Below are positions 23,149 to 58,241 of a DNA stretch of 64,000 bases, one piece after another. The DNA lies in contig NZ_VTEX01000002.1 of assembly GCF_008180865.1 (NCBI RefSeq), forward strand, positions 620,001 through 684,000, given 5' to 3'. Position numbers and translations under genes: made by a program. Numbering within the stretch: the first letter of the stretch is position 1; every line of letters begins with the position of its first letter. Source of the DNA: Rossellomorea aquimaris. GTDB taxonomy: Bacteria > Bacillota > Bacilli > Bacillales > Bacillaceae_B. The notes below the pieces were generated by a model. It was not told the origin of the DNA. It made no database searches and saw nothing but the letters and a program-made list of their open reading frames with translations.

Positions 23149-23218
23149 TCACTCTCGTAAACATTGTTCATGCTCAGTGCAGATGAACTGTTCAAAACGT
23201 TTGGATCAAGAGAAAACA

Positions 23219-23272
23219 AAAGGTCCGTCCCTCACCACGGTAAAGCTTTACCGCATTGAGGGACGGACCTCT
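23219..23272. repeat. Palindromic repeat/bidirectional terminator after xynB
   Basis: Outer arms AGGTCCGTCCCTCA (23221-23234) and TGAGGGACGGACCT (23257-23270) enclose a second palindrome CGGTAAAGCTTTACCG (23238-23253). The element lies between convergent genes and is followed by T runs. The outer arms recur at 45.6, 46.2 and 53.25 kb. Confidence 0.85.
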
Positions 23273-23297
23273 TTTCTTTTTTATCATTGTGCTCGCA

Positions 23298-52936: not shown

Positions 52937-53249
52937 GAGCTCTCTCCTTTATAATCGATATAAAATTCGCCTGAAAATGATCGTCATGCTTTATAGCATT
53001 ATGTCTCTCCGTTACGGAATCCCTGCGCTTATACTGATTGGGTATTTTCCCCCACGTTGTGTAGTTCTTTTGAAAAGCTTGCGTTATTTTGATCATTTTT
53101 TATCGATTTCTCGGTAAAAATGGCCGCTTAGATAAAAAAAACATCCCGGATAGACCAATATACAGGAATCCCCTCATCATTCCACTACATCATAAGCTTC
53201 CACATCAATTTATCAGCGAAATACGGATTTTATCAGCGAATCCCCTCAA

Positions 53250-53393
53250 TCAGGGACGGACCTCCATAGTGGAATTCTTCCAAACTTCTAAACATGCATC
53301 AAGAAATGATCTAAACGTATTGTCGTTCATCGTAACCTCCCAAACTATGTCACTACCAATTATTTCAAAAGAGATACGTGAACTCAATCCCAT
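53250..53393 (-). pseudogene. Possible gene remnant ending in the dispersed repeat
   Basis: A 47-codon frame (MGLSSRISFEIIGSDIVWEV... to VWKNSTMEVRP) ends at a TGA formed within the repeat arm at 53250-53263. An inner ATG at 53328 has GGGAGG 5 bases upstream. The last codons are encoded by the repeat, so a longer gene may have been cut by insertion of the element. No family was recognised. Confidence 0.3.
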
Positions 53394-53521
53394 ATAAAAA
53401 AAGAAGCTAAACTATTCGTAGAGCCCCTGCTGACATTAAAATACTTACTTATTTCCAGACCCTGTGCAGATTTTCCTTCTAAGGAAGTTCCAAATCAGAA
53501 TAAATCTAGGTGGATAAAAAA

Positions 53522-53550
53522 TAGGGACCATCCAATCAGGATGCCCCCTA
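53522..53550 (-). terminator. Terminator of the CNNM transporter gene
   Basis: TAGGGACCATCC and GGATGCCCCCTA form a stem with two mismatches around a short loop. On the minus strand it is followed by a T run (53514-53520). It lies about 45 bases beyond the stop at 53594. Confidence 0.75.
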
Positions 53551-53593
53551 TAAAGCAGCCCGATTTCAAGAGCCAGTTGCTGCTTTTCCATAT

Positions 53594-54895
53594 CTACATC
53601 TTTGTCACTTCTATATAGCGGAGCTGGATTCCGTCTTTTTCAATCACTTTGAAGCGGTGCCCTTCTTCCTCAATGAAGCTGCCGACTTTGGCATCAAGGT
53701 TTTGCGTCATGTACCAGCCCCCGATGGTGTCGATGTCCAGTTCCCCGATGTCGATGTTTATGTTCAAAAGAGAGTTGACATCATTGATGAGGACCTTTGA
53801 ATCAAGAATGTAATGTCCATCCTTAAGCTTTCGGATTTCAGCCACTTCATCCTCGTCAAATTCATCCCGAATTTCACCGACAATTTCTTCAAGGATATCC
53901 TCAACCGTCACGATGCCGGAAGTACCCCCGTATTCATCAATTAGAACCGCAATATGAACCCGCTCTTTCTGCATTTTCACAAGCAGGTCATGAATCGGAA
54001 TCGTCTCAATGACTGTAATGATCGGATTGATAAAAGGTCGAAGAGTAAAGTTTTCATCCAGTTCGTTGACCATGGCCTCTGTCAGAAGCTCCTTCATATT
54101 GACGAATCCTTTGACGTTATCTTTATCACCGTTTACGACAGGATAACGCGTGAAATTCTCATTTCGAATGGTATCTATCACGTCCGCGAGGGTATCGTCT
54201 ATGGAAAGGGAGACAATTTCTTTTCGTGGAACCATGATTTCTTTCGCAATCCGCTCATCGAATTCAAAGATGTTGTTCACATACTTTAGTTCGTTCTTAT
54301 TGATTTCACCGCTTTTAAAACTTTCCGAAAGCAGGATCCGAAGCTCTTCCTCTGTATGAACTTCTTCATGCTCAGAAGCCGACTTCAACCCGAATATTCC
54401 CACAAGCACACGCGCAGATCCATTTAAGAACCAGATAAATGGATACATGATCCGGTAGAACCAAATGATCGGGCCCGAGAATAACAACGTAACGGCTTCT
54501 GCTTTCTGGATCGCAACCGTTTTTGGCGCAAGTTCCCCTACTACAACGTGAAGGAATGTTACAAGGGCAAAGGCAATACCAAAGGACAGGATATGCGTGA
54601 TCGCTTCATTTAACTCGAAATAATCAAAAAGTGGATGCAAAATCTTTTCCACAGTCGGCTCGCCAAGCCACCCCAATCCAAGGGCAGTAATCGTAATTCC
54701 AAGCTGACAGGCAGATAAATACTCATCCAGATGAGTCACGACCTTCTTAGCGGCAATTGATCCTTTTCGATTCTCCGCAATGAGCTGATCAATCCTGGAA
54801 CCCCGAACCTTTACAATCGCAAATTCCGTCGCTACAAAAAAAGCAGTTAAAGCAATCAATAAAACGATTAAAATTAAGTTTATAGACGTTGTCAA
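53594..54895 (-). CDS. CNNM/CorC-type (HlyC/CorC family) membrane transporter
   Basis: A 433-residue protein. The DUF21/CNNM membrane domain (1-190) has four helices and the motif [20 protein letters not shown], with GWLGEPTVE and [14 protein letters not shown] pair follows (about 205-335; [47 protein letters not shown]). The CorC_HlyC domain is at the C-terminus (345-430). Family members export Mg2+ or related ions, with ATP-Mg sensed by the CBS pair. The start is a TTG at 54895 because a stop lies directly upstream in frame. Its leader has an unusual hairpin between ribosome binding site and start. Confidence 0.92.
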
Positions 54896-55245
54896 TTAGC
54901 AGCCTTATCCTCGGATAAGGCTTACACCTCCATCATGATAAATTTCATCCACTAAGTGAATGGTTGGATTGATGAAAGCATGAAGTTGAACTACTTATCT
55001 CTAGAAGGGATTGCATAGAACCCATATTGAGAAGTAGAACGTTCAGCTTCCAGCAACCCGGATCGAACCATTGAACCAAATGTTACACAGCATCGCTTAG
55101 CTGACACGTGTCTTAGCTTCTCTGTCCCATTATTATCCCTCCAGCCGTTTTTATAAAATAATATATTAAGATTTTACTTAATTATAAGAATTTAATCAAA
55201 TATATTACGATAAACACCCTTATTTCAGATTTCAACTTTGTCTCG
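54896..55245 (-). ncRNA. Candidate structured mRNA leader of the CNNM transporter gene
   Basis: About 250-300 bases between an AT-rich promoter-like region (55140-55240) and the TTG start hold several complementary segments on the minus strand. ACACGTGT is flanked by direct repeats AGCTAAG. CTACTT..CTC pairs with GAG..AAGTAG across about 25 bases, with GGGTT and AATCCC inside. A perfect 10-base stem lies just before the start. A GGAGGG and ATG also open a tiny five-codon frame near 55132. The segment does not match T-box, yybP-ykoY or ydaO signatures by eye, and an M-box (ykoK) match is not apparent. A novel or divergent cis-regulatory RNA is possible; folding has not been computed. Confidence 0.4.
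54901..54931 (-). promoter_or_regulatory. Split ribosome binding site: hairpin between GGAGGTG and TTG start
   Basis: On the minus strand GGAGGTG (54925-54931) is followed by TA, a perfect stem AGCCTTATCC/GGATAAGGCT (54901-54922, 2-base centre), GCTAA and the TTG start. Linear spacing from GGAGG is about 31 bases, far too long. If the hairpin forms, the effective spacing falls to about 9 bases, the optimum. A weak AAGG inside the right arm would be hidden in the stem. There is no T run, so it is not a terminator. Confidence 0.55.
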
Positions 55246-56127
55246 CTAATACAAACTTGACCAATACTTCCCTATTTCCCGCCCCTGTGCGGAATATCGT
55301 TCATTCCCATCTAAGGAGAAATCCCTGCTGCAAGCCGAATTCGTCACCTGGAATTTATCATATACAATCTCTTTTCCATCGGAGCCGGTCACACCCCCGC
55401 CTCCACTATGGTAAATACAATCTTTATCAAGCAGGGTCCGCTTTCCTTCTTCATCCACATAGAAATACTGATTCTGATTGATGCTATAACCCCTGTCCTG
55501 CGTAGACGTTTGATAAATTCCATACCGTTCAATATCCGTCCTCATCAACGTGGGCAGACTCTCAATCTTTATAGGAATGACGGTAAACTCTCCATCTTTT
55601 TCAAGGGCAGGTCGTTCCGGCATGCCATAGAAGATGACAACCGTACCCTCGTATCCTTCAGGAATCAGGTAACGGTTTTTGATTCTTTCTCCTTGATTGT
55701 TACCGGATATCCAATTCACAGCTAACATCATAATCGCCACAACGCAGACCACGATAACTAATGTGAGGTAAAATCGCTTGTTCTCCCGGTGAGGAGCCGT
55801 TGTCTTTTTCCTTTTCAACCATTCATCTACGAAGAAGAAGATTACCGCACAAATGACAGCAAACCACGCAAACCCGTCTATCACAAAATACGTAATAGCT
55901 CCAAAGAACGCATGGATGAATGCCGCAACAAACAACCTTCCCTTAACGAGCTTTCTTGTTAACCAATCTGAAAGTAAGGAAACGGGAGCCCCATACGCGA
56001 GGTTACCTGCAAAGGAATATGTAAATACAATTGGAAAGAGCCAGATGCCCCCGTCCATTATGCTAAAAATCATCAAAAAAGTAGAAAGAATCAAACTTGT
56101 ATACAATGCCGGTTTTATTTTATTCAT
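55246..56127 (-). CDS. Membrane protein with soluble C-terminal (DUF6843-like) domain
   Basis: A 293-residue protein. Four predicted helices in the first 130 residues (about 6-24, 28-48, 68-88 and 115-135) precede a soluble domain (140-293) with IKNRYLIPEGYEGTVVIFYG, YQTSTQDRGYSINQNQYFYVDEEGKRTLL and IYHSGGGGVTGSDGKEIVYD. The domain resembles DUF6843 proteins of Bacillus; function unknown. The ATG at 56127 follows GAGGGGAG; the longer frame to 56166 has no support. It is monocistronic. Confidence 0.72.
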   Translation of the reverse strand: MNKIKPALYTSLILSTFLMIFSIMDGGIWLFPIVFTYSFAGNLAYGAPVSLLSDWLTRKLVKGRLFVAAFIHAFFGAITYFVIDGFAWFAVICAVIFFFVDEWLKRKKTTAPHRENKRFYLTLVIVVCVVAIMMLAVNWISGNNQGERIKNRYLIPEGYEGTVVIFYGMPERPALEKDGEFTVIPIKIESLPTLMRTDIERYGIYQTSTQDRGYSINQNQYFYVDEEGKRTLLDKDCIYHSGGGGVTGSDGKEIVYDKFQVTNSACSRDFSLDGNERYSAQGREIGKYWSSLY

Positions 56128-56240
56128 CCTGTCTCCCCTCAAAAGCAATCTTGTGAAATTATTCACAATAAAAGTATAACATAAAAACTAGTTCGTTTAG
56201 GATATTTATACAAACATGAGGAGACGGCCTTTTACACAAG

Positions 56241-56272
56241 AATCCCCTATGCATGAAACAGCATAGGGGATT
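56241..56272 (-). terminator. Terminator of KGG gene copy 1
   Basis: AATCCCCTATGC (56241-56252) and GCATAGGGGATT (56261-56272) are perfect 12-base complements with an 8-base loop, 12 bases beyond the stop at 56285. The T run is weak. Confidence 0.75.
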
Positions 56273-56284
56273 ATTCTCTAAATA

Positions 56285-56548
56285 CTAGTTGCTATTATTG
56301 TTGGAATTATTAGAGTTACCTGAATTACCTGACTGGCTTCCGCCCTTTGCTCCTATTTCCTGATAAAACTTCTTGTCGTGATTTTCTGAAGTTGCTTCTC
56401 CACCCTTTTCTCCGATCTCTTGGTAGAATTCTTTGTCATGGTTCTTAGCTGTTTGTTCGCCGCCTTTACGACCAGCCTCTTCGTAACTCATTTTACTGTT
56501 GTTGCTGTTGTTGCTGTTGCTGTTGTTGTTGTTGTTACTGTTTGCCAT
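56285..56548 (-). CDS. KGG-repeat stress protein (GsiB-like), copy 1
   Basis: An 87-residue, highly hydrophilic protein. A low-complexity Asn/Ser N-terminus is followed by MSYEEAGRKGGEQTAKNHDK, EFYQEIGEKGGEATSENHDK and KFYQEIGAKGG, three KGG units as in B. subtilis GsiB and plant LEA-type proteins, then an Asn/Ser/Gly tail. Such proteins are intrinsically disordered and protect under heat, salt, ethanol or drying. AGGAGG precedes the ATG at 56548. A sigma-B promoter lies upstream. A near-identical copy is found at 57914-58183. Confidence 0.93.
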   Translation of the reverse strand: MANSNNNNNSNSNNSNNSKMSYEEAGRKGGEQTAKNHDKEFYQEIGEKGGEATSENHDKKFYQEIGAKGGSQSGNSGNSNNSNNNSN

Positions 56549-56600
56549 AATTAAATCCTCCTTAAGTGTAGTGGGTGTTGTACGTTTGTACATTGGATAT

Positions 56601-57913: not shown

Positions 57914-58183
57914 CTATTTATTGCTATTGGAATTGCTTGAACTGTTGGAGTTATTCGAGTTATTGGAGTTTCCGGACTGACTTCCGCCTTTCGCTCCAAT
58001 TTCCTGATAAAATTTCTTGTCGTGATTTTCTGAAGTTGCTTCTCCACCTTTTTCACCGATCTCTTGGTAGAATTCTTTGTCATGGTTCTTAGCCGTTTGT
58101 TCGCCGCCTTTACGACCAGCTTCTTCGTAACTCATTTTGTTGCCATTGTTTTTACTGTTGTTATTGCTGTTACTGTTTGCCAT
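57914..58183 (-). CDS. KGG-repeat stress protein (GsiB-like), copy 2
   Basis: An 89-residue paralogue of the gene at 56285-56548. The central segment from KMSYEEAGRKGGEQ to IGAKGGSQSG is identical in both; only the Asn/Ser-rich ends differ in length and order. AGGAGG lies before the ATG at 58183. The upstream region is also shared with copy 1, including the sigma-B promoter, the dyad in the leader and an AT-rich block further upstream, so promoter and gene were duplicated together. Confidence 0.93.
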   Translation of the reverse strand: MANSNSNNNSKNNGNKMSYEEAGRKGGEQTAKNHDKEFYQEIGEKGGEATSENHDKKFYQEIGAKGGSQSGNSNNSNNSNSSSNSNSNK

Positions 58184-58241
58184 AAATAAAATCCTCCTTA
58201 AGCTTAGTAAAAATGGTGTTGTACGTTTGTACATTGGTTAT

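Follow-up and report, generated by a model that had tools for sequence, protein, structure and literature searches.

A conserved predicted hairpin that probably bridges a distant Shine-Dalgarno sequence and the UUG start of CNNM-family genes in Bacilli

The DNA analysed here, called the window throughout, is a stretch of 64,000 nt from Rossellomorea aquimaris (contig NZ_VTEX01000002.1 of assembly GCF_008180865.1, positions 620,001 to 684,000). On its minus strand lies a gene that is a member of the CNNM/CorB (MpfA-like) transporter family. This assignment, made earlier by a model from the letters alone (the sequence-only reading), was borne out by matches to the domains CNNM, CBS and CorC_HlyC, with bit scores of 180.3, 67.4 and 43.7, all above the cut-off. 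The closest named relatives of the protein are annotated as Rossellomorea 'hemolysin family protein'. The parts of the literature available to us describe MpfA as a Mg2+ efflux pump in Bacillus subtilis and Staphylococcus aureus; from that work, family members considered here would likewise export Mg2+. The features of the locus are collected in Table 1. Elsewhere in the window there are two very similar small, Asn/Ser-rich proteins with KGG repeats, encoded about 1.6 kb apart, and a palindromic repeat whose arms contain GGGACGGACCT; it recurs in the same genome and is possibly a small mobile repeat.

Table 1. Features of the CNNM gene, its leader and other parts of the window (window coordinates)
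Feature	Position	Strand	Basis
CNNM/CorB-family membrane protein, 433 aa	53594..54895	-	ORF; domain matches CNNM, CBS, CorC_HlyC
TTG start codon	54893..54895	-	TAA in frame immediately 5' of TTG
5-nt spacer GCTAA with in-frame TAA stop	54896..54900	-	read directly
Hairpin 3' arm GGATAAGGCT	54901..54910	-	sequence read, fold prediction, covariation
Centre of inverted repeat, GA	54911..54912	-	loop by fold prediction is CGAG
Hairpin 5' arm AGCCTTATCC	54913..54922	-	perfect complement of 3' arm; covaries in relatives
TA between SD and 5' arm	54923..54924	-	read directly
Strong Shine-Dalgarno (SD) sequence GGAGGTG	54925..54931	-	read directly from sequence
12-bp helix, putatively sequestering the SD	54970..54981 with 54924..54935	-	whole-leader fold
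Open frame GTEKLR...GLLEAERSTSQYGFYAIPSRDK	54991..55128	-	resembles part of a MerR regulator
Mini-ORF MGQRS*, preceded by GGAGGG	55113..55130	-	
KGG-repeat protein	56285..56593	-	
KGG-repeat protein	57914..58234	-	
Palindromic repeat with GGGACGGACCT	23213..23278; also C10 near 489147 of own genome	+	

Upon re-reading, the GGAGGTG, the perfect 10-base inverted repeat and the TTG behind an in-frame stop proved exact to the base as the sequence-only reading had given them. The same holds for its two spacings: 31 nt lie between the last G of GGAGG and the TTG, and 9 nt remain outside the complete 10-bp stem. Its minimal loop stood as the 2-base centre of the repeat but not as a real loop, for which two bases are unrealistic; the fold prediction gave a stem of 8 to 9 bp closed by a loop of 4 nt, with pair probabilities of 0.8 to 1.0 in the whole leader. 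No T run follows the stem, as had been noted; GCTAATTGAC comes next. A terminator search of positions 53000 to 56500 called a single terminator-like site, on the plus strand and elsewhere, and none at the hairpin. An intrinsic terminator was rejected because of the missing T run. Rfam covariance models gave no match at the gathering score in the 64-kb window, so a known Rfam riboswitch or leader was rejected as well. The leader itself (601 bases, matches listed up to an E-value of 5) returned two weak, chance-looking eukaryotic families only, with E-values of 1.2 and 1.7. Inverted repeats of at least 10 nt are common in 64 kb (64 pairs, palindromes included). Evidence beyond chance must therefore come from the position of the hairpin and from its conservation.

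The comparison covered 237 CNNM leaders: 30 came from the genus, 80 from named records, 24 from the order, 23 from the class and 80 from further places that were picked from match tables before their leaders were seen. By search or by name they come from the class Bacilli, except L039 and L046, which have the hairpin and carry the record name Desulfosporosinus, a non-Bacilli placement taken from the name only. Removal of 12 copies left 225 non-redundant leaders and reduced the hairpin-bearing ones from 211 to 199. A leader was assigned to the hairpin class if it had a strong SD, a spacer hairpin of at least five pairs and -4 kcal/mol, and a start beyond the hairpin; all nearby in-frame starts were tried, and an effective spacing (the distance outside the hairpin) of 5 to 13 nt was preferred. 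By these rules, 199 of the 225 leaders have a hairpin between a strong SD and the start, a count that includes one probable false positive (L223, with an 80-nt spacer) and, like all the leader counts given here, is not made up of independent cases since the leaders share descent. By source, the hairpin was found in 30/30 genus, 66/72 named, 22/22 order, 20/22 class and 61/79 further fetched leaders. The 26 leaders that failed comprise 10 with ordinary spacing, 4 others and 12 without a scored SD; of the last group, L204, L219 and L228 do show the hairpin layout by eye, and L097, L107 and L109 are Paenibacillus records. The start is TTG in 186 of the 199 hairpin-class leaders, compared with 51 of the 369 ORFs of the R. 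aquimaris genome that follow an SD.

The linear spacing in the 199 leaders ranges from 19 to 80 nt (mean 34.5, s.d. 8.9; maximum 73 nt without the doubtful row). The effective spacing, under a start choice that favoured 5 to 13 nt, has a median of 10 and quartiles of 9 and 11, and lies between 7 and 13 nt in 174 of 199 leaders. When the start was picked by a rule blind to the hairpin, which mis-chose some rows (L058, L088, L180, L187 and L238), it was still 8 to 12 nt in 159 of 197. Spacer length and hairpin-enclosed length are correlated with a coefficient of 0.94. Thus, the linear spacing varies and the distance outside the hairpin stays, which identifies the folded distance as the quantity held in evolution. 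This result strongly supports the topology put forward by the sequence-only reading, in which the hairpin shortens the distance between SD and start.

Hardly any of the collected leaders combine a long spacing with the lack of a hairpin. Among 186 distinct long spacers, 181 passed the hairpin test; in three of the five that failed (L088, L187 and L238) the start had been picked inside the hairpin, and the other two (L213 and L227) have short stems. Conversely, no hairpin is present in the 10 leaders with ordinary spacing, and their linear spacing of 8 to 12 nt equals the effective value of the others. Orthologues without both stem and distant ribosome-binding site had been named beforehand as a case against the idea. 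They do occur, but in only 10 of 225 leaders, and there the two features are absent jointly; by eye, more distant homologues at the level of the phylum lack both as well. The joint loss in the minority fits a coupling of stem and distance. At the long end, two genomes of one family (L169 and L192) have spacers of 71 and 73 nt from SD to TTG, which are predicted to be largely folded.

Over the 181 distinct spacers, which had been preselected by the hairpin test, the mean z-score of the spacer fold against its own mononucleotide shuffles was -4.4. With sequence context included, 80 nt before the SD and 40 nt beyond the start, the mean stem pair probability was 0.91. Fold energies range from -4.8 to -27.8 kcal/mol. 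The sequences of the stems vary, with 95 distinct 5' stem heptamers in the 181 spacers, and the loops show no conservation either, 135 of them being distinct.

Covariation was analysed in an alignment (A2) of 79 short-class leaders, whose rows were selected for GGAGGTG, which is invariant in them for that reason; in two rows (L040 and L043) the start had been chosen a few bases early. Standard pairs occupy 81.2% of the cells, compared with 32.4 to 48.4% when one arm was slid, a control that preserves the relatedness of the leaders. These are the compensatory stem changes that the sequence-only reading had proposed to look for in orthologous leaders. The covariation score was 0.389 against at most 0.165 for slid arms. 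None of 500 shuffles scored as high, a count that is no probability because the leaders are related by descent. Double changes were seen at all eight stem pairs. RNAalifold returned no consensus pairs for the 79-row alignment and almost nothing (-1.9 kcal/mol) for a 57-row subset, probably because the stems have been replaced instead of aligning by column. Since the hairpin is kept while its sequence and length change, the start of translation appears to depend on the fold itself.

The layout is rare in the genome of R. aquimaris. In a scan of 1.2 Mb, mechanical calling gave 1,074 ORFs of 100 aa or more; 70 of them showed a loose SD-hairpin-start pattern at some start, and 60 of these also had an ordinary SD. 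Just three of the remaining 10 combined an SD of at least 7 with a fold of -10 kcal/mol or below. The clean cases are the window gene and a close CNNM paralogue (C1:78762); the third (C10:489147) adjoins a repeat hairpin and, by eye, likely uses another ribosome-binding site. A distant CNNM paralogue of the same genome (L114, 33% identity) has ordinary spacing, as judged by eye.

In a tree of 163 proteins, the trait lies within one clade of 147 rows, 140 of which are labelled as hairpin-bearing. The fork that defines this clade has a support of 91 and is drawn open, and the tree program warns of long branches there. None of the 16 rows outside the clade carries the label, 13 of them having been labelled by eye; the outgroup rows and L114 were scored as hairpin-less in that way. 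Inside the clade, hairpin-less labels belong to Domibacillus (L071), Bacillus fonticola (L090), Ectobacillus (L094), L158 and L162. The other two unlabelled rows, L058 and L088, fold too under an alternative start pick. The label changes seven times on the tree, with three changes forced by starred branches, compared with 22 changes when labels were shuffled.

Farther upstream, seven genus leaders (L003 to L009) have about 230 nt in common, including an invariant stretch of 20 nt with the mini-ORF MGQRS*, an open frame similar to part of a relative's MerR protein, and a helix that would mask the SD, 12 bp long in the window. The mini-ORF overlaps the MerR-like open frame in the -1 frame; a similar mini-ORF, MGLRN*, lies at the same place in L344. 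The MerR frame of L344 matches MerR_1 at 8.8e-18. No Pfam match was obtained for the MerR-like open frames of the window clade, that of the window included. Judged from its resemblance to MerR, the window's frame is probably what remains of a merR gene upstream. A new riboswitch in the 230-nt leader was dropped as the main reading because L344 has its MerR frame at the matching stretch and few genomes match; the leader was found in 5 of 397 genomes of the order, its own included.

The folds predicted for whole leaders in the window's own clade also pair the SD with upstream sequence, which is unexplained by a simple bridging picture. In the window, inspection by eye shows a second possible partner for the upstream segment of the 12-bp helix, GATGAAA just downstream, so that two folds may compete. 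In the four rows of the window clade that were scored, the SD had an accessibility close to zero. As a general phenomenon, sequestration of the SD from upstream was rejected: in a sample of 90 of the 181 spacers, accessibility was below that with shuffled upstream sequence in just 43. A control with three ordinary genes (mean accessibility 0.14) was not used.

We consider it likely that, in CNNM (MpfA/YugS-like) genes of Bacilli, the hairpin belongs to the translation start site as a conserved component and that it bridges the SD and the UUG; in silico, the bridging is well supported. According to this model, the very strong SD would bind the ribosome but would sit too far from the UUG in the linear mRNA. 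Folding of the spacer would place SD and start about 9 to 11 nt apart and make initiation possible, as in a split (accommodated) ribosome-binding site. The 30S subunit would accommodate the hairpin, which would be folded during binding, and unfolding would lower translation. A split site is recognized by an SD beyond the usual distance from the start, seen here in the window and in the 199 leaders; by a hairpin that restores a functional distance, which is predicted for the window as for the median leader; and by pairing kept through compensatory change, seen in the slide and shuffle tests and not by RNAalifold.

Other roles of the hairpin are less plausible. It might dampen translation, as a brake on a membrane protein harmful in excess. 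Non-AUG starts prevail in these genes, and the hairpin over the ribosome-binding site of sigG lowers translation 2- to 4-fold (PMC5942855, as far as its text was at hand). The sigG hairpin covers its ribosome-binding site, however, whereas the CNNM stem leaves SD and start free, and an effective spacing equal to the ordinary one is unexpected for a mere damper; we regard a brake as improbable. An intrinsic terminator, attenuator or mRNA-stability hairpin placed there by chance would account for the stable stem but for neither the missing T run nor the constant effective spacing, and is very improbable, though the hairpin could still have a side role in mRNA stability. The palindrome is near-perfect and might thus be a DNA operator, for example for a MerR-family factor; L344 does have a MerR frame upstream of its CNNM frame, with another reading frame in between. 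Yet the pairing is conserved and the sequence is not, and the site lies between ribosome-binding site and start whatever the upstream content. We rejected an operator, which we hold to be scarcely credible, because the stem sequence varies among relatives.

A regulatory function deserves separate treatment. The idea that the hairpin might be a sensor platform, raised by the sequence-only reading, was not demonstrated, and the wide range of fold energies and the unconserved loops argue against fine tuning as a thermometer or Mg2+ meter and against one shared ligand that binds the loop. The split site could still act as a switch that is on when folded, with high Mg2+ or cold favouring folding and a CshB-like DEAD-box helicase unwinding the hairpin and lowering output. 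In the accessible parts of the reports on S. aureus, mpfA mRNA was higher without the RNA helicase CshB under all conditions tested, with the largest rise in RPMI and at 25 °C; where the loss of cshB was suppressed, mpfA was hit in 10 of 15 cases. The sign fits, since unwinding of the hairpin by a helicase would reduce initiation, and initiation would go up once the helicase is lost. A GUG-to-AUG change at the start of S. aureus mpfB is reported to relieve mpfA loss, which indicates that initiation can limit such proteins. The hairpin also precedes a CNNM protein whose sequence matches that of a named Staphylococcus xylosus protein at 100% identity (L231/L332), although the Staphylococcus hairpin is known here from these rows and not from the leader of S. 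aureus itself. Against a switch, the CshB effect was measured as mRNA and is possibly indirect according to its authors, and the fold energy is not confined to a narrow range. Because of the published link between CshB and mpfA, CNNM leaders may be regulated, and we regard a switch as possible but doubtful. We put forward only tentatively, as rather unlikely, that Mg2+, temperature and a CshB-like helicase set the closeness of SD and UUG via the fold, as a conditional ribosome-binding site on Mg2+-exporter genes across Bacilli. Tuning of exporter output by hairpin stability (Mg2+, cold) or by a DEAD-box helicase is speculative.

Known systems were compared with the CNNM leaders as far as the sources were available to us. 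In phage T4, a hairpin reduces the spacing from 22 to 5 nt in gene 38 and from 27 to 11 nt in gene 25, and mutations that destabilise it reduce initiation (PMC3014915). As in these genes, the CNNM SD is too distant, a spacer hairpin gives a working distance, and the arrangement is kept among close relatives. Unlike them, CNNM genes are a chromosomal family in which the arrangement is kept across much of the class Bacilli with varied stems and with spacers that reach about 70 nt; their starts are mostly UUG instead of AUG, and the role of their stem is a predicted one. It is this chromosomal setting, the far wider conservation, the variable hairpins and the UUG starts that are new with respect to the split sites of T4. 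The sigG leader of B. subtilis (PMC5942855) also combines a conserved hairpin with a non-AUG start in Bacilli, but there the hairpin covers the ribosome-binding site and represses, whereas the CNNM stem leaves ribosome-binding site and start outside. The M-box Mg2+ riboswitch of mgtE (PMC6711546, PMC8844918) is likewise a structured 5' RNA in front of a gene that serves Mg2+ homeostasis, but the window has no Rfam match at the gathering score and MgtE transports in the opposite direction. In the open-licence PMC literature, to the extent that its text was accessible, we found no report of a hairpin between ribosome-binding site and start of a CNNM, mpfA or yhdP gene.

If the bridging model is correct, a layout documented for two T4 genes would be standard in a family of Mg2+-exporter-like genes of Bacilli and long conserved there. 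Start prediction from linear SD distance can then miss such genes. The 185 distinct spacers would form a natural series on the tolerance of the 30S subunit for a hairpin between the SD and the P site, and the link between CshB and mpfA, so far unexplained, would become directly testable. Should the ribosome-binding site prove conditional, it would explain the higher mpfA upon CshB loss in S. aureus, and it would constitute a minimal feedback loop, with excess Mg2+ promoting the making of its own exporter.
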